From the NCBI GenBank assembly GCA_963971425.1, contig OZ020523.1, positions 9,544,867-9,608,866 of the forward strand: a stretch of 64,000 bases of DNA. Reading direction: 5' to 3'. The number at the start of each line of letters is the position of its first letter. Position 1 is the stretch's first letter. Made by a program: the position numbers and the translations under genes. This DNA comes from Bryoerythrophyllum caledonicum. Its lineage: Eukaryota; Streptophyta; Bryopsida; Pottiales; Pottiaceae. The notes beneath the pieces are model-generated. The model saw only the letters and a list, made by a program, of their open reading frames with translations, was not told where the DNA came from and searched no databases. Below, piece by piece: positions 4,950 through 64,000 of the stretch.

Positions 4950-5835
4950 GATGAACAACTATGAAGCATTTTTTGTTAGGAATAGTCAAGGATTAATAGG
5001 GGTTGATTTGTATGTTGTATTAAATTTTACCAGCATGATACTTAATGGTTGAATATTTGAATAATATTACCTCCAATGGATAAATTCACCTTGTATTTTC
5101 ATTTCTTTCATGAAGTTCCACTAGTAAACTTTCTGGTAATGATAATTATTATTAATCTTGAAATCTATTCATTGTCCAAAATTATTAGACATTTAACTTT
5201 CTTATTGAGACATTTAAATTTTTAAGCATACAATTCAATTATTCTATATTATGTTTAGAAAAATTGTATTGTTTGTAATTTCATTGGAATGGCATCATTA
5301 ATAGTAAATTTCACATCCTCACCTTTACCCTTAAGGCCTCATGACCATTTATTGGACATTTGGGCAAGATAACCCCTATAGTAGGTGCTACAGGCCACCC
5401 ATGTGGAAAATTTGAATTGCTACTTAGCCATGAAGCATGATGAGCATCCACCCGGACCGGCGCCACTAAATTTGATGCAGGCATTGGCAAACTACAATGA
5501 TTTCCATGAACTGGATTGCGATGAAATGTATTCATTGTGTAGATGATGTTAACATAATCTATTTTTCTCGTAGATTCTCCCATCATCCAAAGTAAGCTTG
5601 TCCTAAGAGGATTAAAGCTAAAACAATTGAATTAAAATATTTGTCTCCAATTTGAAGAAAAAATAAGAGCAAGCAGCAGATAATTTTGTGCTTTCAAAAT
5701 AAAAGCTAATAAATAAGTTTCCTTCAAAGGAATATTGTATTAAGATACATTGCACTTTGTTCAATAACATTTTTATTATTTATAATGAAAACAATAGTAC
5801 TAAAAATAATTATTATAAGTTTTTACTCTTGATGA
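4950..5835. repeat. Dispersed repeat D, copy 1
   Basis: This stretch matches the reverse complement of 27715-28572 over most of its length, for example CACCTTGTATTTTCATTTCT here against AGAAATGAAAGTACAAGGTG there. Shorter related pieces lie near 8420-8510 and 20860-20930. A 91-codon minus-strand frame (5586-5311) is open but not recognisable. The class of element is unknown. Confidence 0.6.
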
Positions 5836-13510: not shown

Positions 13511-14997
13511 ACTTTTCTTTGTAGAATACAAAAATTGTACTAAAGTTCAAAAAGACTTACACATTTGGATATTAGATTCTTCAACAAACATCTTTCATTT
13601 AGAGGTCATTTCAATGTCATGTTCAAATACAACATTGTACAGTACCCACCAATAAGTATACGTTCATGAACGTTTCCACACTACACTGCTGCCAACTTTG
13701 ACACCCTCCTGAGGGCTGGAAAAATGTCATTTTACCATGAAATTTTTGGCACAAGATCATTTCTATGTTGACAACATGTGTGCCAAATTTCAAGGCTAGA
13801 AGATGAATATAGAAAAAGATATTCCAAATTTACCAACAAGTGTAGTTGTAAGCCATTCACTATTGCCAATTTTGACACCCTCTTGAGGGCTGAAAATTTG
13901 ATATTTTACCATGAAAGTTTTATCACAAGATCATCTCTATGCTCATAACATGTGTGTTAAATTTCAAAGCCATGTGATGAATACAATAATAGATACACAA
14001 GATTGTTTCTCATAGTTTCACATGTTGGTAGATTTTGAATATGGGTTTTTTTATTCATCTCCTGGCCTTGAAATTTGGCACACATGTTATATTCATAGAG
14101 GTGATCATGTGTTAAAAAATTTATAGTAAAATAACAATTTTTCAAACCTAGGGAAGGTGCCAAAGTTGAAATGGTACCCTTGGTTGTTTGTCACAATTAG
14201 CACGTTGGTAGATTTTGAATTTTTTCTTTTCTATCGTGGATATTTTAGACTTGAAATTAAGCACACATATAATCAACATAGAGATGGTCTTATGTCCAAA
14301 ATCTCATGGGAAAAAATATAAAACTCAATCCATGGGAGGGTGTCAAATTTGGCAAGAGTGAAATGTTTCTCACAACTACACATGTTGGTAGATTTCAAAA
14401 ATCTTTTACTGTGTAGGTATTCTGGCCTTAAAACTTGGCACACATGTATTTGATATTGAAATGGTTTCATGCCGAAAATTTCATGCGCAAAAACAAAAGA
14501 TTTAATCCTTGGGAGTGTGTCAAAGTTGGCCAGGAGTGAAATGTTTCTTACAACTACACTCTCAACTACACATGTTGCTAGATTTTAAATATGTCTCTTT
14601 GTGTGGATGTTTTAGACTTTAAACATGTAATAAACATAGAGGCGGTCCCATGCCGAAAATTACATGGGCAAAAAGAAAAAATTCAATCCTTGGGAGGGTG
14701 TCAAAGTTCGTAGCTATGAAACTTTTCTTAGTGCTACCCATGTTGGTAGATCTTGAATATCTTTCTTTTAATTCGACTTCCGACCTTGAAATTTTACATA
14801 CATGTTGTCAACGTAGAAATGATCTTGTGCCAAAAAAATCATGGTGAATTGACAATTTTTCAGCCTTTAAAAGGGTGTCAAAGTTGGCAGCAGTGTAGAG
14901 TGGAAACGTACATATGCAAAATGAACGTATACTTATTGGTGGGTACTGTACATGTAGAATATTGTGGTCACATATGGCACCTTCACATATTTAAGGC
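13473..14997. mobile_element. MITE family F copy 1, split by a foldback element
   Basis: Left part 13473-13639 and right part 14949-14997 together give an F copy, reading in order TTTGTAGAATAC, ACTTACACATTTGGAT, TTCAAATACAACATTG, then TACATGTAGAATATTGTGG. It is flanked by TTAA at 13469 and 14998. Intact relatives are at 15919-16144, 21243-21468, 33713-33917 and 34433-34648. Confidence 0.6.
13640..14948. mobile_element. Foldback element E1, TA-flanked, built from ~178-bp units
   Basis: Ends are CAGTACCCACCAATAAGTAT and its complement, flanked by TA (13638-13639 and 14949-14950). The terminal inverted repeats are about 60-70 bp and nearly perfect over the first 28. Inside, a motif GCCAACTTTGACACCCTC occurs near 13691 and 13865, then reversed near 14151, 14334, 14511, 14692 and 14871, that is two units one way and five the other, spaced 174-183 bp. 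The TA duplication and CAGT terminus fit the Tc1/mariner superfamily (known rule); no transposase is encoded. The insertion is in a family F element whose relatives keep the uninterrupted site. Confidence 0.75.
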
Positions 14998-16689: not shown

Positions 16690-18680
16690 CATTGAGATCT
16701 AGGGCAGCTAGGCAGGGTTCTATAGAGCTAAAAAGTAGTACTCTAGAGCTGAATAGTACAATCTTTTGTTGCATCAAGCAAAGCAGGAAAGTTCTTGGAA
16801 GCCCTCATTGATTTTACATAACAAGCATAGAAATCAAGCATTTTGTTTCTTTTCAAGTTTTTTCCCCCTTAATAGAAGGAGACATGATGTTGTCATCTAT
16901 TGTTCAAATTTTATATCCAAAAATATTTTATTGAAATTTTAAAATAATCGTTTTGATGAGGAAATGGCCGCATTCTCTACCCCTTGTCATTGCAAGATCT
17001 TTCTCCTTATCCTAAACCCCTCCATTACTTGTGATTCTTGGTGTTCATTAACCTTACATAAGGTAGACAAACATACACTTTATTCACGGCAACCCCCTTT
17101 GAGGACGGGAGTTCTTCTTCTTCTTCTTACATAAGGTAGAACATAGTTCTACAAAATTCATGCAATGCGTGGTGGAAAATTATGCTATCATTTTGAGTCA
17201 AAGTACGTTGATCTTGTTTGCGCAAGGAAGATGAAAAAATTGTTGCACCCTTCAAATGCACGTATATTACAATTCACAAGGTCATTCTTTACATCATATT
17301 TTGAGTGCCTTCTAGTAAAATTTGAAATCCCACGGTTGAAAATAGTGAAAATGCTTTTAATTTATTCTCATAAAGTCTCTTTAAAAAGAGACAGGTTTCG
17401 AGTAGTTTTGGTGAAAGACAGTCATAGTTCTTGGGTTTTTAATTGTTTTTATTCATAAAATCATTTAATACATGAATACAATAGCATTAAGTTCTATTTC
17501 ATTCTCATGAGATGGAATTTACCACCTGATGTAGATATCTTGTATGTTGTAAGCATATGTAATGTTCATCATTTGTATACACAATGAAAAAAAATAAAAA
17601 TTCTATACATCTATGTTGTAAGCATTAAAATAAGAAAAAACATTAAAATAAGAAAAACAAGAAAAATAAATTATTTTAAGTCCTTCATGAATTATTTTCT
17701 TATTTTGACCTCTGAATTTCTCAAAGTCTTCTTTGGAAACTTTTGGAGGTTTGGGAAGGTTCTTGTGGTGTCAATTCACAACAATTCTCTTTGAAATTTT
17801 TATTGTAGATGGACATTACTAAAAGTTTTTTGGGTGTACATTTTTTTCTTTTGAAATTTGACATTAAATGAAAAGATTATGCTACCCGAAGGAGTTTCTT
17901 AGAAATGGCAGTCAAGCCGGGTAGGGTACTAAAAAGCTAAAAAGTAGTATTGTAGAGCTAGCATATCAGTGCAACTTCTTATTGGTGAGTAGGAGTGAAG
18001 AAAAGTTTTTGGCAACTCTCATTTAAAATTAAAAAAAACGTGTAAAGATCAAGGATTTTACCTTTACCAAAAAAAAATTCTTCACCTACTAGAAGAAGCA
18101 TAATGATTCTATCCACCGTTCATATCTTGGGTCCAACAATTTAATAAAATTGCTCTTCCAAGTGAATGGCTATTTTTAAATCCATAGGCATTGCAAGTTC
18201 AATCTTCTTATCCTAAGCACATGCATTACTTGTGATTTTTGGTGAGCGATGACCTAACACAAGGTAGGGGCAAATATATAGAATTTATGCAATGTGTAGT
18301 AGAAAAACATGTCAATTTCTTGAGTCAGAGTACACTAACCCTATTTTTGCAAGGAAGACAAGAACCATATTGCACTCTTCAAATGCACTTATCTTATACG
18401 CCATGCTGTCAAGGTTTACAAAAACTATTAAGTTTCCTCTTGTAGTAATCGACTTGAAATTACTATGGTTTCACTTATCTTATACTCCATGCTGTCAAGG
18501 TTTACACAAACTTTTAAGTTTCTTCTTGTAGTAATTGACTTGAAATTTTTATGGTTGAAAAAAGTAAAACACTGTTTAAATTAGTCTTTGAACATCTCAT
18601 TTTAGAGAGACAACTTTGGGGTGGTTTTGGTGTAACAAAGTCTTGAGAGTTTAGGGATTGAATGTTGTTTCTATTTTTTA
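16690..18680. repeat. Two tandemly placed copies of dispersed repeat J
   Basis: Copies at about 16690-17450 and 17905-18680 share AGCTAAAAAGTAGTA near the start and the GCAATG(C/T)GT(G/A)GT to CTTCAAATGCAC block near the end. A short retroelement tail lies inside the first copy (17070-17134). Open frames here (17165-17458, 18239-18531) are translations of the repeat and look noncoding. Confidence 0.45.
17070..17134 (+). mobile_element. Retroelement 3'-end fragment with (TTC)n tail
   Basis: ACACTTTATTCACGGCAACC followed by a short hairpin region and GTTCTTCTTCTTCTT. It matches in reverse the 3' termini at 31366 and 60290, so it is a severely 5'-truncated copy in the opposite orientation. Confidence 0.55.
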
Positions 18681-19235: not shown

Positions 19236-19500
19236 AAGAACTTCGGCTTCCGGAGGAGGTCGACGTAAATAGAGTGTCTGTTCATTCCCGTCACTATTTC
19301 TTTGTCCATAGGACAAGGAAAAGCGGAGATGAACTACTGTCTTCTTTCAAGGGAAGATACTATGGGACAAGTAGCTAGTAACCAGTGAGTAGTAACCAAT
19401 AACCAGTGAGTAGTAACCAATAACCAGTGAGTAGTAACCAATAACCAGTGAGTAGTAACCAATAACCAGTGAGTAGTAACCAATAACCAGTGGTTGGAAA
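19236..19500 (-). mobile_element. 5'-truncated retroelement tail with 21-bp minisatellite
   Basis: The stretch 19236-19365 matches the 3' UTR of the retroelement at 60290-60430 (GAATAAAGTGTCTGTTC-like string, the paired GGACAAGG, the AACTAC block). At 19381-19491 the unit ACCAGTGAGTAGTAACCAAT is repeated about five times at a 21-bp period. The other copies have AACCA-rich sequence at the same place, so the minisatellite probably grew from it. A weaker related piece is at 19770-19840 and another, in plus orientation, at 20203-20240. Confidence 0.6.
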
Positions 19501-27714: not shown

Positions 27715-28572
27715 CCAAAGTTTCTTTTACTATTGTTTTTATTATAAATAATAAAGTGTTATTAAAATAAGTGCAATGTATCTTCATAAAAAATGTCCTT
27801 TAAAGGAAGTTCATAATTTAGCATTTCATTTGAAAGCACAAGATTGACATTTGTTTGTTCTTATTTTCTCCAAATGGAAACAATTAGTGTATCTCAATTG
27901 TTTTAGCTTGAATCCTATAAGGACAAGCTCCCTTTGGACAATGGGAGAATCCACGAGGTAATAGACTAGGCAGAACACCATTTATACATTGGATATATTT
28001 TATTGCAACACCACTCCACGGAATTCATTGTAGTTCGCCAATGCCTGCAACAATTTTTGGCGCGCTCGTTTGCTGAATGCTCATCCCGCTATGCTGCTAA
28101 CTTGCAGTTCAAATTTTCCACATACGTGTTTTGTAGTGCATGCTACACGGATTAACGTGCCTAAACGACCAATATAGGGTTGTTAGGCCTCAATGATAAA
28201 GGTGGAAATGTAGATTTTACTAATACTGATGCCATTCCATTGTAATTACAAACATTATAATTTTCTACATAGAATTAGATTGAATAATATATATATTTTC
28301 TTAATATATTAAATGTCTCAATAAGGAAGTTGTATTGCTATTTTAATACAATGAATAAATTCAAAGATTAATAACAATCTTCATTCATTCAAAAGTTTAC
28401 TAGTGGAACTTCATTAAAGAAATGAAAGTACAAGGTGAATTTATCAATTGAAGGTAATATTATTCAAATACTAACCATCATATATCATGTTGGTAATATT
28501 GAATAAAAAATACAAACTAATATCTATTATTCATTGACTATTTATAACAAAAAGATGCTCCAAAGTTGTTTA
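27715..28572. repeat. Dispersed repeat D, copy 2 (inverted relative to copy 1)
   Basis: Reverse-complement match to 4950-5835, including the GTAGTTCGCCAATGCCTGCA block and the ATTGAATAAAAAATAC end. Foldback element E2 begins six bases further on. Confidence 0.6.
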
Positions 28573-28577
28573 TTGTA

Positions 28578-29906
28578 TAGTACCCTCACACAAGTATACG
28601 TACTTTTTTGATTTTGTACATTTCCACACTACACTGCTGCCAACTTTGGCACATTCCTAAGGGCTGAAAAATTGTCAATTTACCATGAAATTTTTGGCAC
28701 AAGATCACCTTTATGTTGACACCATGTGTGCCAGATTTCAAGGCCAAAAGATGAATACAAAAAAAGATATTCAAAATCTACCAAGATGTGTAGTTGTGAG
28801 CCATTCACAGCTAACCAACTTTGACACCCTCCCAAGGATTGAAAGAATTTTTTTTGCCCATGGAATTTTTAGCATGAGACCACCTCTATGTTTATAATAA
28901 GTGTGCCAAATTCCAAGGCCACATGATGAATAAAAAAAAGGATATTCAAAATTGTTTCTTGTAGCTACATATTTTGGTAGAATTTGAAGATGGTTTTTGT
29001 ATTCATCTTCTGGCCTTGAATTTTGGCACACATGTTATCAACATGAAGGTGATCTTGTGCCAAAAATTTCATGGTCAGTTAAGAATTTTTCCGACCTAGG
29101 GAGGGTGCCAAAGTTGACAATAGTGAAATGGTTTCGCTGATTGTTTCTCACAACTACACATGTTGGTAGATTTAGATTTGTTTCTTTTCCTTTGTGGGTC
29201 TTTTGGACTTGAAATTAAGCACATGTATAACCAACATAGATGTGGTCTTATGTATAGATTATGATGGAAAGAAATAAAAAATTGAATTCTTAGGACGGTG
29301 TCAAAGTTGGCAGCAGTGAAATGTTTCTCACAACTATACATGTTGGTAGATTTCAAAAATCTTTTGATATGTAGATATTTTGGCCTTCAAATTTGGCACG
29401 CATGTGATCAACATAGAGATAGTCTCATGTCAAAAGTTTCATGGGAAAATACCCAAAAATCCAATCCTTGGGAGTGTGTCAAAGTCGGCTAGGAGTGAAA
29501 TGTTTCTCACAACTACACATGTTGCTAGCTTTTGATGTATTTTTAATTGTGTGGATATTTTGGACTTGAAATTTTTCACACATATAATCAACATAGAGGT
29601 GGTCTCATGCTAAAAATAACATGGGAAAAAGAAATTCTTTCAATCCTTGGAAGGATGTCAAAGTTGGCAGCTGTGAAACTTTTCTTACAGCTACCCCATG
29701 TTGGTAAATCTTGGATATCATTTTTGTATAAATCTTCTGGCCTTGAAATTTGGCACACATGTTTTCAACATAGAAGCGATCTTGTGCCAAAAATTTCATG
29801 GTAAATTGACAATTTTTTTAGCCCTCAAGACGCTACCAAAGTTGGCAGCAGTGTAGTGTGGAAACGTACAAAAGCAAAAAGTACGTATACTTGTGTGAGG
29901 GTATTG
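28578..29906. mobile_element. Foldback element E2, TA-flanked
   Basis: Ends TAGTACCCTCACACAAGTAT and, reversed, CAATACCCTCACACAAGTAT are flanked by TA on both sides. The CCAACTTTGRCAC motif occurs near 28640 and 28818, then reversed near 29100, 29293, 29471, 29650 and 29825: the same two-plus-five layout as E1 with units of about 178 bp. Short open frames (28685-28897, 29547-29804 and others) are translations of the units. Confidence 0.75.
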
Positions 29907-30175
29907 TACAATCAGCTTCCTTTACAACAACCTATGTTGTTTTTCCTGCTATATATAGAGACTGTTAATTTGAGCGGTAGTTATAATGAAAAGGATGGGT
30001 TATGACATACAAGTTGTTACATGCTGTCATAGAGAGCAAATATTTGTTAGGAACCAAGCCGCATGTTGTAATGAAATTGTTGCACAAGATGCTTTTATAA
30101 AGGAAGGTGACTGTAGTGCAAATAATGAATTGATAAAGATTGTCATTATTTCTATCTCCAACTATAAAATCTTAA

Positions 30176-31075: not shown

Positions 31076-31365
31076 TTTTAAATTAAGATTTAAAATTAGA
31101 ATTGCGAATTTGATTGTGGAGTCAACTTTTCTTCCATATCTTGCGCATAGTGAAAAAGTTTGACTTGTGATAAAATGGAAATCATTCTATAAAATAATCA
31201 CAAAAAGTGAATGATTATTTGTTTGAAAATCTTAATGTTTATAGAAGGATGTAGTAAAAATGTTGGAAGCACTCAAAGTTGAGTAATTTGTACATGGAAT
31301 AGCACAAATGTTTTATCTAAAAGTAAGTCCAAAAAATAGTTATTCCCCCACAAAGCTAAGAAGAA

Positions 31366-32235
31366 AAAGAACGCCGGTCCCCGAAGGGAGCTAGTATGAA
31401 TAAAGTGTCCGTTCATTCCACCACTGAGTCCATGCCCACCGGGCATGGGTTAGTAGTATGGAACTACTTCCCCCTTTCGAGGGTAGACACTATGTACCCA
31501 GTAACAAGTAGCCAAGAACAAAGGACCATAGGTCCCAAAAGCCTCCAAAAGAGGGAGGGCGTGTACGGTGAAATACAAATGTTAGTCTATGGAGGGGAGT
31601 CCGAAGCGTCAGGAAGGGATTTAGTTGTTTTCAAGTTTTCATTTATGTAGGAGTATCGACATAGCATGTTGAATTGCAATAATGTTATTATTTGAAAAAG
31701 TAGTTTTGATTGAAGTGATGGGGATTTTAAATGTTTCTTCAAGGGTTGTCATTGAGGGAATGAAGGTGGTGGCTCTAGCACCCGCGGTGATGACAATGAG
31801 GGTGTCTACTTTCCATCCTAGTGCTTGAATATCGTCAAGTAGTAGTTGGTATTTATTTGTTTTGTTTGCAATAGTGTCCGAAGAGAATCTATCATTGCAA
31901 TATGTGAATTCAATAAACTGAATAGTGAGACTAGGGTCTATGTGGTTTGGTGGGGGGTCTTTGTATGATAGTCCTCTAACACATAGTAGGCCCGGTTTGA
32001 ATCTTGCATTACAGTGGCATCTTTGAGTGCAACATATGCATGGTAATAGCCAAGGTGGGACCGTATTTTCTTGTGGGTTGTCATTGAAGGTTTCGGTATT
32101 CATGAGAATGAAGCAACGGGATTTGGTTGATGATACAAGTAGTTTACGAATGGCCCATACGGCTTTGTTGTGTCTTTTGACAATTAGTGAGTGTATATGG
32201 GGGTTTTGGCACTTGAGTAAGACATGTAGCCCCAC
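31366..32235 (-). pseudogene. 5'-truncated retroelement copy: CCHC tail and restriction-like endonuclease region
   Basis: The minus-strand frame 32235-31639 (198 codons) is clearly homologous to the last third of the retroelement protein at 60564-61874: HVLLKCQN, KRHNKAVW, CCTQRCHCNAR, IQFIEFTYCNDRF and TAGARATTFIPSM occur in the same order. It begins inside the CCHC knuckle, with everything 5' missing, as expected from incomplete target-primed reverse transcription. The 3' UTR (31638-31366) matches 60290-60560 and ends in a hairpin and A/G-rich (TTC-type) tail. The motif KPD of the full copy reads KPG here, which would remove a catalytic aspartate if the nuclease assignment is right. Not functional. 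Confidence 0.75.
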
Positions 32236-32395
32236 AAAGCTACTATTATGTTGCAGTCTTATTAAAAATCCATAAATTCATGATAAAAATGAGATTATTG
32301 GATCTAATTTAAAATAACAAAGGTTCCTTAAAAGATAAATGATCACTAAGAGGTTAGCAAGTTTTATGGTTAGCAAATTTCTATTTATCCCTAAA

Positions 32396-41429: not shown

Positions 41430-41464
41430 ATGTACTCTTGTCACGTGTTCAGTTATATACTGTA

Positions 41465-42283
41465 CAGTCCCCTTGAGTAAAGATACGTACTTTTTGCATT
41501 CCTAGGGAAAGTAATTTTCAGTGCTACCAACTTTGACACCCTCTTGAGGGTGAGAAATTGTTATTTTACCATGAAATTTTTGGCACAAGATCATTTCTAT
41601 GTTGACAACACGTGTGGAAAATTTCAAGGTCGGAAGTCGAATAAAAAAAAAGATATTCAAGATCTACCAACATGGGTAGCACTAAGAAAAGTTTCATAGC
41701 TACGAACTTTGACACCCTCCCAAGGATTGAATTTTTTGTTTTTGCCCATGTAATTTTTGGCATGGGACGGCCTCTCTGTTTATTACATGTTTAAAGTCTA
41801 AAACATCCACACAAAGAGACATATTTAAAATCTAGCAACATGTATAGTTGTGAGTGTAGTTGTAAGAAACATTTCACTCCTGGCCAACTTTGACACACTC
41901 CCAAGGATTAACTCTTTTGTTTTTGCGCATGAAATTTTTGGCATGAAACCATGTCTGTATTGAATACATGTGTACCAAGTTTTAAGGCCAGAATACCTAC
42001 ATAGCAAAAGATTTTTGAAATCTACCAACATGTGTAGTTCTGAGAAACATTTCACTCTTGCCAAATTTGACACCCTCCAATGGATTAAATTTTATATTTT
42101 TTCCCATGAGATTTTGGACATGAGACCATCTCTATGTTGATTATATGTGTGCTTAATTTTGTGCCAAAAATTTCATGGTGAAATAACAATTTTCTAGACC
42201 TCAAGAGGGTGTCAAAGTTGGCAGCACTGAAAGTTACTATCCCTAGGAATGCAAAAAGTACGTAACCTTATCGAAGGGGACTG
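41465..42283. mobile_element. Foldback element E3, TA-flanked, in the AUG3 3' region
   Basis: Ends CAGTCCCCTTGAGTAAAGAT and, reversed, CAGTCCCCTTCGATAAGGTT, with nearly identical inner arms through TACGTACTTTTTGCATTCCT, flanked by TA on both sides. Units near 41525, 41704, 41882 and 42060 run one way and one near 42205 the other (four plus one), a shorter arrangement than E1 and E2. It starts 35 bp after the AUG3 stop codon. The region 41566-41763 translates like part of E1 (14650-14847), confirming homology. Confidence 0.8.
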
Positions 42284-47665: not shown

Positions 47666-50600
47666 TCAAGAAAGATACTTTAAGTCCAAGATGCTCTCCT
47701 CAAGCTCCTTCAAGGACAGACACCTCCTAGGATCCAAGTAAATAAGAGACTTCAACTCCTTGATGCTCTCTAAAAGGTCTTTCAAGAATCCACACCAATT
47801 AAAATCAAGTAGAATCTTTGACTCCTTGATGCCTTCTAGAAGCTCCTTCAAACGCTTACATCAACTTAGATTTCAGTGTTTAAAAGGCTTCAACTCCTTG
47901 ATGCTCCATGGAAGCTCCTTCAAGAAGTCACGCCGAATAAGCTTCTAGTGCACAAAAGACTTCAACTCCTTCATGTCCTTTGCAAGCTCCTTCAAGGACT
48001 CACAGTGCCCAAGATCCAAGTGCATAAGAGACTTCAATTCCTTGATGCCCTCTCGAAGCTCCTTTAAGGACTCACACCCACTAAGATCCAAGTGCGTAAG
48101 AGACTTCAACTCATTGATGCCCTCTGGAAGCTCCTTCAAGGAGCTACAGTCGTTAAGATCCAAGTGCATAAGAGACTTCAACTCCTTGATGCCCTCTCGA
48201 AGCTCCTTTAAGGACTCATACCCACTAAGATCCAAGTGCGTAAGAGACTTCAACTCCTTGATGCCCTCTCGAAGCTACTTCAAGGACTTACACCCACTAA
48301 GATCCAAGTGCATAAGAGACTTCAACTCCTTGATGCCCTCTGGAAGCTCCTTTAAGGACTCACACCCACTAAGATCCAAGTGCGTAAGAGACTTCAACTC
48401 CTTGATGCCCTCTGGAAGCTCTTTCAAGGAGCTACACTCGCTAAGATCCAAGTGGATAAGAGACTTCAACTCCTTGATGCCCTCTGGAAGCTCCTTCAAG
48501 GACTCACACCGGCTTAGATCCAAGTGCGTAAGAGACTTCAACTCCTTGATGCCCTCTGGAAGCTCCTTCAAGGAGTAACACCGGCTTAGATACAAGTGTG
48601 TAACAGATTTCAACTGCTTGATGCCCTCTGGAAGCTCCTTCAAGGAATTACACTCGCGAAGATCCAAGTGCGTAAGAGACTTCAACTCCTTGATACCCTC
48701 TGGAAGCTCCTTTAAGGAGTCACATCCGCTTAGATCCAAGCACGTAAGAGATTTCAACTCCTTGATGCCCTCTAGAAGCTCCTTCAAGGAGTAACACCTG
48801 CTTAGATACAAGTGTGTAAGAGAATTCAACTCCTTGATGCCCTCTGGAAGCTCCTTCAAGGACTTACACTCACGAAGATCCAAGTGCGTAAGAGACTTCA
48901 ACTCCTTGATGCCCTCTGGAAGCTCCTCTAAGGAGCTACACTCGCCAAGATCCAAGTGCGTAAGAGACTTCAACTTCTTGATGCCTTCTCGAAGCTCCTT
49001 CAAGGAGCTACACCCGCGAAGATCCAAGTGCATAAGAGCCTTCAATTCCTTGATGCCCTCTGGAAGCTCCTTCAAGAACTCACACCCGCTTAGATACAAG
49101 TGCGTAAGAGACTTCAACTCCTTGATGCCCTCTGGAAGCTCCTTCAACGACTCACACCCCAATAAATCCAATTGCGTAAGACACTTCAAGTCCTTGATGC
49201 CCTCTGGAAGCTCCTTTAATGACTCACACCGCCTTATATAGAAGTCCGTAAGAGACTTCAACTCCTTGAGGCCCTCTGGAAGCTCCTTCAAGGACTTACA
49301 CCCGCTTAGATCCAAGTGCGTAAGAGACTTCAATTCCTTGATGCCCTCTGGAAGCTCGTTCAAAGAATTACACGAGCTTAGGTTCAAGTGAGTAAGAGAC
49401 TGCAACTCCTTGATGTCCTCTGGAAGCTCCTTCAAGGACGAACACCACCATAGATACAAGTGCGTAAGAGACTTCAACCCCTTGATGCCCTCTGGAAGCT
49501 CCTTCAAGGACGAACAAAGACTAAGATCCAAGTGCATAAGAGACTTCAACTCCTTGATGCCCTCAGGAAGCTCCTTCAACGAGCTACACTTGCGAAGATC
49601 CAAGTGCGTAAGAGACTTCAACTCCTTGATGTCCTCTGGAAGCTCCTTCAAGGACTTACACTCGCAAAGATCCAAGTGCGTAAGAGACTTCAACTCCTTG
49701 ATGCCCTCTGGAAGCTCCTTCAAGGACTTACACCTCTGTAGATACAAGTGCGTAAGAGACTTCAACTCCTTGATGCTCTTTGGAAGCTCACCCATGAATG
49801 AAACATCTCTTAGACTAAGGTACAACAAACATGTCGTACCCGAGAAGAAATTTGGAGGAAGTGATGTAGGCAATCCTATCCCATCATCTATTGTGATAGA
49901 TGATAACAAGCATGTCCGAAGGTTGTGGCCTTTAACAATCATTTGTGGGGCTAAATTCTTAACATGACAACCCACAAACGACACCCTCTTTGTTGTATCT
50001 TTAATTTTGGGGAGTGTCTCCAATACTTTCCCTGGCTCAAACTGACATTCGTATGCCCATTCACCAAACTTAGCATTTCGTATGATGCGAATGGCAAGGT
50101 CTCGCATAACATCATGTACCTTGGCATATTTTCCATCATCACTAAGATCAATCAAAGATCGATCTGCAAGGTTAATCAAGGTCATCCTCCCTATACTCAT
50201 TTTATCTTCAGCAGCAAATGAATCCTCAGCATCATGTGATCCAAACAATCCCTCAGCCTGCCAAATGGAACACAATTCCTCCGTTTGATTCCAATAATCT
50301 TCAGGAAAACAAAATACAAGAAACACTTCTTTGCCTCCACACTTAGTACATCATAACTGAACTTCAAACAACCATAGAGGTTATCCTCCATTGCAGCCGA
50401 ATTTAACCAAGATTCAGATCTCCTCAACCGACTCAAAGCATATTCCCAACTCCTTTTAGCAATTTTGCCCCATAGTGCACCACCAATAACCTCCAAACCC
50501 AATGGAAGCCCCTTGCATTCATTACAAATTTCCATGGCAATATCTTTCACTTCACATGATGGAGGCATGTTAGGTTGGAATGCATGAAAAGAAAACAACT

Positions 50601-60036: not shown

Positions 60037-60563
60037 AAGCATAATTATATACTTTGTGATTCCAATTCCATTTTTTTGGTAATGGTGCGTAATATTACAA
60101 AAGTAAGTATAACTACTATTATGGAAAAAGTAAGATTTTTGTTAGGGCTTACTTTCACAAATAATGGCTACAAACCCGACCTCAATTACAAATGTGTAGG
60201 TTCAAGGTTCATGTTCCATTGAACAACGAAATAATGCATCATATCCCACACCCAATAAGCTTCACCTCAAGGAGCATAATACTACCCCAAGAAGAAGAAG
60301 AACGGCGGTCTCCGAAGGAGGCCGGCGTGAATAAAGTGTCTGTTCGTTCCACTACTAAGACCATGCCCACAGGACAAGGAATTAGTGAGCTGGAACTACT
60401 TCCCTCTCTCGAGGGTAGACACTATGTAACAAGAAACCAAGGAACCACAAGTCAACCAACGAATCATAAACCAAGCAACTAGCCAACGAACTAACCACAA
60501 ACCAGGCAAGTAGTCAAAAACCTTAAAACCAACTAATCATGAAAATCAAGGCGGGGGGAGAAT

Positions 60564-61874
60564 TTAGAGGGGGTCATGTGTATCGGGGAGGGCTTGGTTG
60601 TTTTCGATTTTGCATTTATGTAGAAGAATGGACATGGCATGTTGGATAGCTATGGTGTTAATGTTTTTAAAGGATGTTTTAATTGTTTCAATGGGTATCT
60701 TGAAGGTGTCTTCTAGAGTTTTCATAGATGGGATAAAGGTGGTGGCCCGAGCGCCGGATGTGATTACCATAAGGGGGTCCACATTCCATCCGAGGGCCAT
60801 GATGTCGTCAATAAGAGGTTGGTATTTGTCAATTTTGTTTTGGAATGTTTCCGGGGAAAATCTATCGTTGCAATATGTGAATTCAATGAATTGAATGGTG
60901 TAGTCTTGGTTGACGTTATCGGGTGGTGGGTCATTGTATGGTAAACCTTTGACACAAAGGATGTCCGGTTTGAGCCTAGCGTTGCAATGACATCTTTGGG
61001 TCGTACATGAGCATGGGAGTAGCCAACGGGGGACCGTATTTTCTTGTGGATTGTTATTGAAAGTGCCGGCGTTCATTAGTGTAAAACATCTCGATTTATT
61101 GTAGGAGGTGATTAGTTTTCGGACTTCCCATACTGCTTTGTTATGTCTTTTAACAATTAGGGAGTGTATGTGGTGGTTTTGGCATTTGAGTAGAACATGT
61201 AGCCATGTGTCGGGGTCCGTTGAGGGGCATATGGGGCATGTTATGGATGGAAATCTTTCTATTCCAAAAAAGAGTTGTTTACGGGCGTTTCCCATGTATT
61301 GACCGGTACGGAATTTGATAAGGCATGTTATTTGTGAATCGGTGATGATGGGGTTTTTCCAAAAATTTGTAGAGAGTTCATTGTCTATGTCATTGTTGTT
61401 AGTCCACTTTTCTATGTTAGGAAAGTTGTCTGTGATTGTGTCAAAATTGTTTTGTAGGTCTTGTTTTTTGAGGTATTTGCTCAGGAATCTGACCGGGCCA
61501 TTATCGGGGGTGTCTTCTTTGGAGGGCCAATCTTCTTTTTGGAAATAGTAAGGGGTGGCATGGGCATGTTCATGTAGGTCTTTGGCATTTTTATGTGATC
61601 TTTCTCTTCCTTCTTTTGCAAGTTTATCCGCTTGTTCATTGCCATCAATATTAGCATGGGCTCGGACTTTATGGAGGGTTGTGATTTGTTCTCTTTTTAG
61701 TATCATTTGGACCATTGATTCTAGTATGATTCGGTCGGGGTGACTATTATGGAGGGTAGGATGTGTTATTTGGGTGTTTAATAAATATAGTGCGTTAATG
61801 CAATCTGTAAATATGTGCACCGGTTCATTGTTGTATTTTGTTGAGACGATTTCTAGTGTTTTGTGGATGGCCAT
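60564..61874 (-). pseudogene. Retroelement C-terminal block: RNase H, CCHC knuckle, PD-(D/E)XK-like domain
   Basis: A 436-codon open frame that continues in frame from the preceding block across the TAA at 61995. RNase H acids are visible: the YTDGS aspartate upstream (about 62016), E in RAELMAIH (about 61878), D24 in IFTDC, and the HANIDGNEQAD end with His and Asp. A knuckle C213-x2-C216-x9-H226-x4-C231 follows, then a cysteine cluster CSCTTQRCHC (288-297) and RLKPDIL (D304), FIEFTYCNDRF (E331) and KIDKYQPL (K347/K350), ending in VITSGARATTF. CCHC followed by R-x-x-PD ... (D/E) ... K..KY is the layout of R2-type restriction-like endonucleases, which nick the target for target-primed reverse transcription. 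The nuclease call is inference from motif order. Confidence 0.7.
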
Positions 61875-61994
61875 TAGTTCTGCTCTGAGGATATTTTGCA
61901 GTCCATGTAGTCTTTTGGCTAGTTTGATTTCTTTCGTAGCGTTGTATATTCCATAACCGGCTTTTTCTCTGCGCCAAGATCCCGGGCTAATTTG

Positions 61995-63425
61995 TTATGG
62001 CGATTTAAAGGAGCCATCAGTATAGTAGCTATATTCGGGGTTAAATTTAGGTGGGGTGTTAGTTTGATACTCCGGGAGGGGTGGGGGTGTTAAGGTGTAA
62101 TTTAGTGTATTGTTATTGTAGTGTAGTTTTGACCATTTTTTGCTTCTGTTGACGGGTGTTTGCATTGGCGTTGGTGGGGCCAATTTTGTGAGTATCCGGT
62201 GTACGTTTAGAGTCTTTGTTATGGAGGAGAGTTCTTCTAGTTGTTCTTGTGTGCCTAGAGTATGATTTTGGTGGTGGATGCATATTATTTGTAGAGTGGA
62301 TGATTCAATTCTGGGTTTTTTTAGATCTAGTGGGATGGTGGGTTCTTCATATGTTATTGAATCGGCTTCGAATATTGTGATGATGTGTGTATCGGGAAAG
62401 GGGCCCGAGTGTGGATTATGATTTTGGTACCAATTTTTGTCTGGGGTTATGATTAGGGTGGAGGTGTGGTTTGGGTCATGTTTGGCCGCGAGGCGGGCCC
62501 AATGTAGTGCTTGTTGTGTTTCTTCTTCATTGTGTGGGTGGGCCATACCATTACCTATCCATTTGTGGTCAAAGGCTTTGCCTAGTGATCCGAATATTTT
62601 ATCTCTTTCAAAGGGGGAGTAAAATTTGTTGAGTTTGGTGGGGCATGTGACGGGGGAGGAGAAATATGAGTGTTGGATGTTGAATGTGGAGATTAGTGAA
62701 TTAAGTATAGGTATGGGTAGTGTATATTGTGTAAGTTTAAGGGGGTTATTTTTTGGTAATCTATATTTGTATCTTTGGTATAGCCAAATGACTTTGGTTT
62801 CGAATAGTTGGGTTGTTGGTTCAATGTTTGTAGGGGTTTGTAGTTTAGTATTGTATTGGTTCCACAACCATGTGAGCCTAGTGATTGGGATGGTAAAAAG
62901 ATGCCTTCCATCTTCTTCGTATAAGTGTGCTTGGTCTTTGTCAATTTTTATTGTGTTAGATGAGGTAAGAGTGTCTTTTTCGGGGTTGCATTCCGTTGTG
63001 TAGATGTTTAGTAGGGGGATTATTGTGGGTGGGGTGATGGACCTTGTGTCTTGGGGTTGGTTTTGTGGGTGGTGAACTTGGATAATTTTGGTGTAGAATT
63101 TGTGTTGAGTTCTTTGATAATATTGTGTCAATTTATTTGTGTTATGTGAAATGGTGTTCTGGTTGTGTCTTGGGAAGAGGTTTCTTTGGGGGAGCCATTT
63201 GTTGTAAGTGTGGTTATTGTGAGTCCATTGGCATAGATATCTAGTGTAATTGTTTTCTATTTGGTTTTTATCTATTTTCTTCTTGTATTCGTGGTGTATG
63301 ATGTTGTTAATGGGATAGGTGGTGGGGTTTTTGAGGATGTGGTTTGGGGGGTGGGGGTGGTGTGGGTGGGTGGGAGTGGGGAGGGTGGATCGATTGTGTG
63401 GTGATATTTCTTGGGGTGATGTCAT
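61995..63425 (-). pseudogene. Retroelement middle block with methyltransferase-like region before RNase H
   Basis: A 476-codon frame. Residues 1-240 are His/Asn/Thr/Pro-rich and unrecognised. Residues 245-392 (about 62693-62250) contain RDKIFGSLGKAFDHKWIGNG, then AHPHNEEETQQALHWARLAA, LIITPDKNWY and a strand-rich end. FG.xGxAF...W.GN, a P-containing turn, a helix with paired alanines and a hydrophobic strand ending in PD is the pattern I associate with PCIF1-like adenine N6-methyltransferase folds. The catalytic NPPF/Y is not present (AHPH occupies that place), so any activity is doubtful. The block ends in YYTDGSF, the first RNase H motif, followed by TAA. Confidence 0.5.
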
Positions 63426-64000
63426 TGTTTATAGTGATGAATGGGTCTCTAATTGTATGAGAGTATGTATGTGTATTGGTATGTGTATTGGGTGGGGGGG
63501 GATATATTGGGTGACAAAAGAGTTGTCGTGCAATTTTTAGGGCACTTTTAATAAGTTTTGATGGGGTGAAGTGGTAGGTTTTAAATTCTTCATTGTTCAT
63601 GATGTGTGTTCCGTTGGGTAGGAAGATTTGTTTTAGTTCGTAGATATTTTTTGATAGGAGTTTTTGTAATAACTTTTGAGATAATTGTGTGTTGAGTGTA
63701 TTATGGTTTTGTGTTTCAAGAGTCCAGGCTTTTTCTAGTGTTGTTGGTTCTGTAAGAAAGTTGGCGAGAGTGCTTTTTAGGTGGACTTTTGCTACGTGTT
63801 TTAGTAAGAAGAAGGTACGTGTTATCGGTGATCTTGTACAATTTGTCTTTTTTATTCTAGGTATGTTTTCAGCCCCCCCCCATATTGTGCGAGGATGTGA
63901 TGTGTTAGGCCTTTGTATATTTTCCCAAGTCTGCCACTGTCATTTAGAGCGTTCTGGAGTTGTTCTCCTATGCATCTAAGGTATGCGTTTTTTAGTGAGA
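63426..64000 (-). pseudogene. Retroelement upstream coding block, frameshifted
   Basis: On the minus strand a frame runs from the edge (SLKNAYLRCIGEQLQNALND) to the C9 run at 63873-63881, where continuation requires a shift of one base to reach FFLLKHVAKVHLKSTLANFL and LSKNIYELKQIFLPNGTHIM. A further shift joins it to the 63425 block, possibly at the G8 run near 63493-63501. I cannot assign a domain. The breaks at homopolymers may be sequencing errors or true decay. Confidence 0.45.

Follow-up and report, generated by a model that had tools for sequence, protein, structure and literature searches.

A 64,000-nucleotide stretch of the genome of the moss Bryoerythrophyllum caledonicum (hereafter the window; contig C11:9544867-9608866 of a searchable 437-Mb assembly, G000) ends in part of a high-copy retrotransposon that lacks long terminal repeats (non-LTR). 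We conclude that this part is probably the 3′ portion of a copy, now dead, of a long interspersed nuclear element (LINE) of the Dualen/RandI type that is autonomous and has been active recently. Elements of this type have two endonucleases: an apurinic/apyrimidinic (AP) endonuclease and a restriction-like endonuclease (RLE). Intact relatives in the same genome carry a reverse transcriptase (RT), RNase H, a zinc knuckle and RLE motifs, which supports the Dualen/RandI likeness proposed in a preliminary description of the window. The window copy comprises the following features, all on the minus strand.

60289..64000, -, part of a broken copy of the high-copy, dual-endonuclease non-LTR retrotransposon; runs on past 64000
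63171..63305, -, chromodomain-like segment (PF00385, E 0.008, below cut-off)
62439..62840, -, PCIF1-like domain (PF12237, E 1.4e-11, 44.7 bits, cut-off 31.1), catalytic NPPF replaced by HPHN
61605..62021, -, RNase H (D-E-D-H-D, residues from the translation; PF00075, E 9.1e-13), interrupted by a stop
61995..61997, -, in-frame TAA inside RNase H
61182..61238, -, CX2CX9HX4C zinc knuckle, CPICPSTDPDTWLHVLLKC
60720..61151 (limits approximate), -, RLE by motif: RHN, CxC..CxC insert, RLKPD, IEF, KxxKY
60564..60566, -, polyprotein stop codon
60289..60563, -, 3′ untranslated region (UTR), ending in a hairpin and a (TTC)n tail

Two adjoining open frames of 477 and 476 amino acids (aa; 63428-61995 and 61994-60567) fill 63428-60567 on the minus strand. 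TDGSF of RNase H (~62021) lies in the first and the remainder of RNase H in the second, with the TAA between them. The motifs named in the preliminary description are present at their place and on the minus strand, with TDGSF in a separate frame. Frameshifts occur further upstream, one of them near a C-run at 63873-63881 (plus strand), and together with the in-frame TAA they show that the copy is broken. The RT, which had been expected outside the window, was found just beyond 64000 when the surrounding genome was read. The region of this copy beyond the window is 96.6% identical in nucleotide (nt) sequence to a copy on contig C7 (G000:C7) across 6.7 kb.

Plan and affinity of the full-length element

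With the 476-aa frame as query, the genome search gave 89 scored matches, all of them 92-100% identical and nearly full length. Stop-free frames were found in two relatives. The frame on contig C9 (L009+L010) is 3386 aa long and has an extended poly-Q run close to its start; the one on contig C8 (L070) is 3087 aa long, and the two are 83% identical over 2704 columns. Extension and translation of the whole element, as the preliminary description had proposed, yielded open polyproteins in these relatives and a broken frame in the window copy. The polyprotein consists, in order, of a leader, a 2A-like peptide (GGDIETNPGP), an AP endonuclease, the RT, a chromo-like segment, a PCIF1-like domain, RNase H, the knuckle and the RLE-like tail. 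The AP endonuclease, the 2A-like peptide and the chromo-like and PCIF1-like segments had all escaped the preliminary description.

Segments of L070 matched the Pfam families Exo_endo_phos (E 7.3e-7), RVT_1 (6.9e-27), RNase_H (4.2e-14, 53.4 bits) and PCIF1_WW (1.1e-12). Isolated AP endonuclease segments scored 29.6 bits in L070 and 26.1 bits in another copy, L012, over a cut-off of 24.5, and the residues ETK, GDFNRD, LIDGFY and NSDHSP can be read in the AP endonuclease. AP endonuclease and RLE had been set against each other as alternatives, an opposition that does not hold, as the AP endonuclease is present as well. RNase_H was not listed in an hmmscan of the whole L009 frame, nor was Exo_endo_phos in one of the long L012 frame, though the isolated segment of the latter matches. 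The sequence GDIETNPGP fits the published StopGo/2A pattern, (D/G/C/N)(V/I)ExNPGP (PMC12846837), and is exact in L009, L012, two further copies and L070. The chromo-like part matched PF00385 with a best E of 0.0049, and with E<=0.1 in 5 of 12 copies; it also gave weak CBX4/Polycomb matches. Upstream lies a separate frame resembling open reading frame 1 (ORF1), in which four copies (C9 versus C12, C1a and C2b) are 64-66% identical at the nt level; it has no Pfam match. As to variation in length, the ORF2 leader of L009+L010 contains a poly-Q/QP expansion of several hundred residues that is not found in L070, and the open frames are longer still, at 3566-3606 aa, in copies at G000:C6:22402071, C4:6095670 and C2:24058651.

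The affinity of the RT was examined by phmmer against R2 and L1 chains from the PDB, a reference set that includes no named Dualen/RandI sequence. The three best matches were R2 sequences at 105-108 bits, followed by L1 ORF2 chains at 74-76 bits, with 8gh6 and 8ibw, which we take to be Bombyx R2, at only 56-61 bits. These mixed scores, which are pairwise and not a tree, do not contradict a position near both the R2 and the L1 groups. An ordinary plant L1, equipped with the archaeal-type RNase H of plant L1, would likewise contain AP endonuclease, RT and RNase H, and the L1 chains do outscore Bombyx R2. Yet the three top matches are R2 proteins, the fourth RNase H position is H and not the R that marks the archaeal-like type (PMC4640811), the PCIF1-like and RLE-like parts are extra, and the tail is (TTC)n, not poly(A). 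We regard an ordinary L1 as highly improbable.

The plan of the element appears to be that of Dualen/RandI, the group described as combining an AP endonuclease with an RLE (PMC3636483, PMC4640811) and as having RNase H too (PMC4640811). Both have short repeats at the 3′ end, (ATT)n and (CTATTT)n in RandI (PMC3747384), and in the moss element the RLE is identified by motif. The moss element differs in its host, its PCIF1-like and chromo-like segments, its 2A-like peptide and its (TTC)n tail, the comparison being one of descriptions only. With R2-type RLE LINEs it shares the best RT matches in the PDB and the order of a knuckle followed by RH..PD..D/E..KxxKY (PMC5678591); it differs from them in having an AP endonuclease and RNase H, in showing no site specificity, and in details of the knuckle and tail given below.

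Dualen/RandI elements have been reported from core-Reinhardtinia algae (PMC8226300) and LINE/Dualen from cryptophytes (PMC12747079), in line with the earlier statement that elements with both RNase H and a C-terminal restriction-like nuclease are known chiefly from green algae and some protists. A table of element distribution gives Dualen/RandI for green algae only (PMC4438587), and a table in PMC3747384 gives only L1 and RTE for flowering plants. No report of Dualen/RandI in land plants was found in the literature searched, a partial search; one match to RandI, in a paper on Douglas-fir, was rejected as a person's name.

Insertion marks and recent activity

The 47-nt 3′ end of the element gave 973 genome matches (541+432) at <=3 mismatches, and the reversed control gave 0. 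One 3′ end is common to 49 of 50 copies; it consists of a hairpin, GCCGG..CTCC-TTCG-GGAG..CCGGC, and, after it, (TTC)n or a variant rich in T. A pattern search for the hairpin caught 41 of the 50 ends, in 30 variants. The 3′ flank could be parsed in 40 of the 50 copies; among the 40 parsed flanks, 38 are distinct. Three copies, L018, L023 and L052, share one flank, which suggests that they inserted into one repeat or were copied later by segmental duplication. Target-site duplications of 12, 13 and 14 bp were found at three insertions; the duplication TGTTAAATATGC flanks the C9 copy, which is itself nested in an older relative. The window contains further traces of the element, as follows.

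31359..32230, -, second copy, truncated at its 5′ end, belonging to an older subfamily (tail 75% identical in aa)
32230..32242, -, 5′ target-site duplication flanking the second copy, TAGCTTTGTGGGG
31346..31358, -, 3′ target-site duplication flanking the second copy
17054..17140, +, third, tiny insertion of the 3′ end with a TTC tail (~59-bp stub, 17068-17126)
17054-17067 and 17127-17140, 14-bp duplications of the third insertion, TTACATAAGGTAGA
19236..19371, -, diverged fragment of the same 3′ UTR (73.7% over 137 columns)

The common 3′ end, the truncation and the duplications are marks of target-primed reverse transcription.

Sequence identity among copies speaks to the age of the family. 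A search with the RNase H block scored 150 places among 5685 loose first-look candidates; 41 of the 150 are 100% identical to the query in protein sequence, 32 of them within a stop-free frame of 3087 aa. In the C7 and C12 copies, nt identity is 65-82% over most of the ORF and rises to 93-100% from about codon 2950 of ORF2, a jump from which we infer that 3′ parts have been exchanged between subfamilies. Judged from its plan and its insertion marks, the element would work like Dualen.

The restriction-like tail and the PCIF1-like domain

An RLE carries PD and D/E residues among its motifs. In RLE LINEs, a CX2-3CX7-8HX4C knuckle is followed by RH at the first helix and by the catalytic K in KX2KY (PMC5678591). 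In the window copy the corresponding landmarks, read on the minus strand, are RLKPD at 60977-60963, then IQFIEF, then KIDKY at 60836-60822. When the 268-aa tail of L070 was shuffled 200,000 times, the ordered pattern [RK]H[DN]..[RK]PD..KxxKY, with loose spacing limits, turned up in 6 of the shuffled sequences; a knuckle of the CX2CX9HX4C type turned up in 44 of 20,000. The tail is also under purifying selection: between subfamilies, the ratio of nonsynonymous to synonymous substitution rates (dN/dS) of knuckle plus tail is 0.08-0.14 (5 pairs, with sequences shared among pairs).

The tail deviates from the described RLE in its knuckle (X9 versus X7-8), in an inserted CxC..CxC cluster and in GW for GXW near the end. 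The cluster lies between RHN and RLKPD (L070:8957-8986). Three of its four Cys are invariant in alignment A2, and 2 of 11 rows have Tyr in place of the second; a residue pattern of this kind may possibly form an extra metal site.

Several results, besides the mixed RT scores, weigh against the reading of the element as an autonomous, Dualen/RandI-type LINE. The tail has no significant sequence match in Pfam or the PDB, its AlphaFold models are poor (predicted local distance difference test, pLDDT, 38 and 36) with insignificant fold searches, and in an older subfamily PD is replaced by PE or PG. Exo_endo_phos reached 23.8 bits on the whole L009 frame, just under its cut-off; of the 9 copies that cover the 2A motif in one alignment, only 4 have it exact and 5 have it altered; and the chromo-like part, at 16.5, 13.1 and 15.9 bits where given, does not reach its cut-off of 25.1. 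A clear target duplication was seen in only 2 of 8 copies of one test, though for four of the other six the 5′ end may lie beyond the sequence that was read. Finally, all dN/dS pairs used here and below share sequences, and many have dS >1, which makes the ratios rough.

Since neither sequence nor fold searches confirmed the fold, the RLE assignment stays motif-based. The Pfam and PDB searches gave no significant match of the C-terminal block to an RLE, which the preliminary description had named as a supporting sign, nor to any unrelated domain. One could suppose that this block binds DNA as the relic of an RLE, or that it forms an unrelated domain, with the AP endonuclease doing all the cutting. 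Besides the insignificant searches and the substitution of PD, the lack of any site specificity among the insertion flanks would fit such a supposition. Against it stand the ordered RLE landmarks, at the expected place behind a CCHC knuckle, and the low dN/dS of the tail; moreover, the copies with PE or PG are one interrupted and one truncated. We consider it unlikely and retain two endonucleases as the working plan.

A PCIF1-like domain would set the moss element apart from the Dualen/RandI plan as described, and is a new feature. PF12237 scored 48.3 bits in L070, 41.7 in L009 and 43.2 in L012, all above the cut-off as in the window copy, and matched all 12 members of alignment A3 at E<=0.1. 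A genome search placed 150 of 150 scored places over the cut-off, among 2614 loose first-look candidates, and the search of 14 control genomes gave no match. Over ~100 residues the domain aligns to solved PCIF1 (E 0.03 and 0.0064) as LPxPxLxxLxxxFxI..FxSPxxC..FGSxG, covering residues 287-392 of the 496-residue chain. We take PF12237, despite its name, to cover the catalytic core of PCIF1 and not the WW domain, and the matched residues agree.

PCIF1 is a cap-specific N6,2′-O-dimethyladenosine (m6Am) methyltransferase, and it carries an NPPF motif (PMC8868631). The moss domain shares the PF12237 core, including FxSPxxC and FGSxG (versus 6irx/6irv), and differs in sitting within a retrotransposon polyprotein and in having HPH[N/S/T] for NPPF. 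We surveyed this position in 29 rows, of which 4 repeat a copy already present; the survey covers copies that contain an FGS[L/R]G.AF stretch. AHPH was found in 22 of the 25 distinct copies and AHAH, ADPH and APPH in one each, and NPPF in none. The replacement is shared by L062, L065 and L066, which are only ~50-56% identical to the C9 copy in the PCIF1-like region, so the loss of NPPF must be old.

Between subfamilies, dN/dS of the PCIF1-like domain is 0.08-0.24 (10 pairs). The corresponding ranges are 0.05-0.14 (AP endonuclease, 5 pairs), 0.06-0.19 (RT, 9 of 10 pairs usable), 0.07-0.31 (chromo-like part, 9 of 10 usable) and 0.24-0.83 (a linker, 7 of 10 usable). On these substitution patterns, the PCIF1-like domain appears to be under purifying selection and kept for something other than NPPF-type methylation. 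Because NPPF has been lost while the core has been kept, we propose a non-catalytic module, perhaps one that binds the cap or RNA.

The domain might instead still be a methyltransferase, with HPH for NPP in an altered active site, acting on the RNA or cDNA of the element. The conservation of A-H-P-H itself, down to ~50% identity, and the purifying selection would agree with this, as would the precedent of captured cytosine methyltransferases in retrotransposons. Given that PCIF1 has NPPF and that none of the distinct copies surveyed retains it, we find a surviving methyltransferase quite improbable. The precedents, SymbioLINE-Dnmt and KnitGypsy-Dnmt3 (PMC5890265), resemble the moss element in having captured a methyltransferase domain that is under purifying selection; they differ in that the domain is of the cytosine type, in their element classes and hosts, and, for KnitGypsy-Dnmt3, in the conservation of key residues. 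Chromodomain-containing gypsy elements (chromoviruses and oomycete Chronos; PMC5348765) similarly have a chromodomain-like segment in a retroelement polyprotein. Those are LTR elements, whereas in the moss LINE the segment gives a weak match and sits between RT and RNase H.

A more specific form of our proposal, which we offer only tentatively and think rather doubtful, is that a PCIF1-derived domain captured between RT and RNase H became a non-catalytic reader of capped RNA that selects the element's own full-length mRNA, with the chromo-like segment steering insertion. No report of PCIF1 joined with such a retrotransposon was found in the literature searched, which was partial.

Host genome, proposed life cycle and wider meaning

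Matches to the element are spread over 13 long contigs (C1-C4, C6-C12, C14 and C15; 20-65 Mb), and the window copy shares its stretch with NB-ARC/leucine-rich repeat (LRR) and pentatricopeptide repeat (PPR) genes, the land-plant-type neighbours that had been noted beside it. This distribution bears on whether the element could come from an algal or microbial contaminant, a suspicion that the presence of two different plastid genomes in the assembly might raise. psaB of plastid contig C894 scored highest, at 1666 bits, against 7ksq, 6l35 and 8htu (others, 1633 and 1599), and psaB of the second plastid contig, C821, gave the same order of the best five chains. The three chains are presumably Physcomitrium patens photosystem I, and both plastids are closest to the same, apparently moss, chains, which points to a moss as the host. 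With the long contigs and the plant neighbours, this makes a contaminant origin of the element scarcely credible. The two plastid contigs (L072-L075) are 97.6% identical in psaB at the aa level and ~89% at the nt level over 4.4 kb; the two genomes would reflect either contamination or the presence of another moss in the sample.

Elsewhere in the window, a nucleotide-binding leucine-rich repeat (NLR) gene at 47672-49789 (minus strand) carries 24-aa leucine-rich repeats in a long tandem series with a 72-bp period, and a frame at 48275-50350, beside an NB-ARC frame, runs for 691 aa without a stop. Dispersed repeats of other kinds, 0.7-1.3 kb long and 77-91% identical, lie at 13634-14952, 28572-29910, 41461-42159 and 4951-5799 and show internal inverted and tandem similarity.

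For the moss LINE as we read it, the following life cycle can be envisaged. The mRNA of the element would be copied by target-primed reverse transcription, in which the RT would recognise the 3′ hairpin and slip on the UUC repeats. One endonuclease would nick the first strand and the other the second, and RNase H would remove the template. The 2A-like site would free the polyprotein from its leader. In the least certain step, the PCIF1-like module may bind the element's own mRNA at its cap or 5′ end; alternatively, it may act with the chromo-like segment to recruit the complex to transcribed chromatin.

Dualen has served as a link in the argument that AP-endonuclease LINEs arose from RLE LINEs (PMC4640811). 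A young and rich moss family would extend the range of Dualen/RandI into land plants, with many nearly identical intact copies on hand for study. If a PCIF1-derived cap reader is indeed part of it, the element would have a LINE polyprotein with seven functional modules and, within the literature searched, the first described cap-recognition module of a retrotransposon. Since selection has kept the PCIF1-like domain although its catalytic motif is gone, it becomes a testable question whether a retrotransposon can use the fold of a cap enzyme to find its own mRNA.

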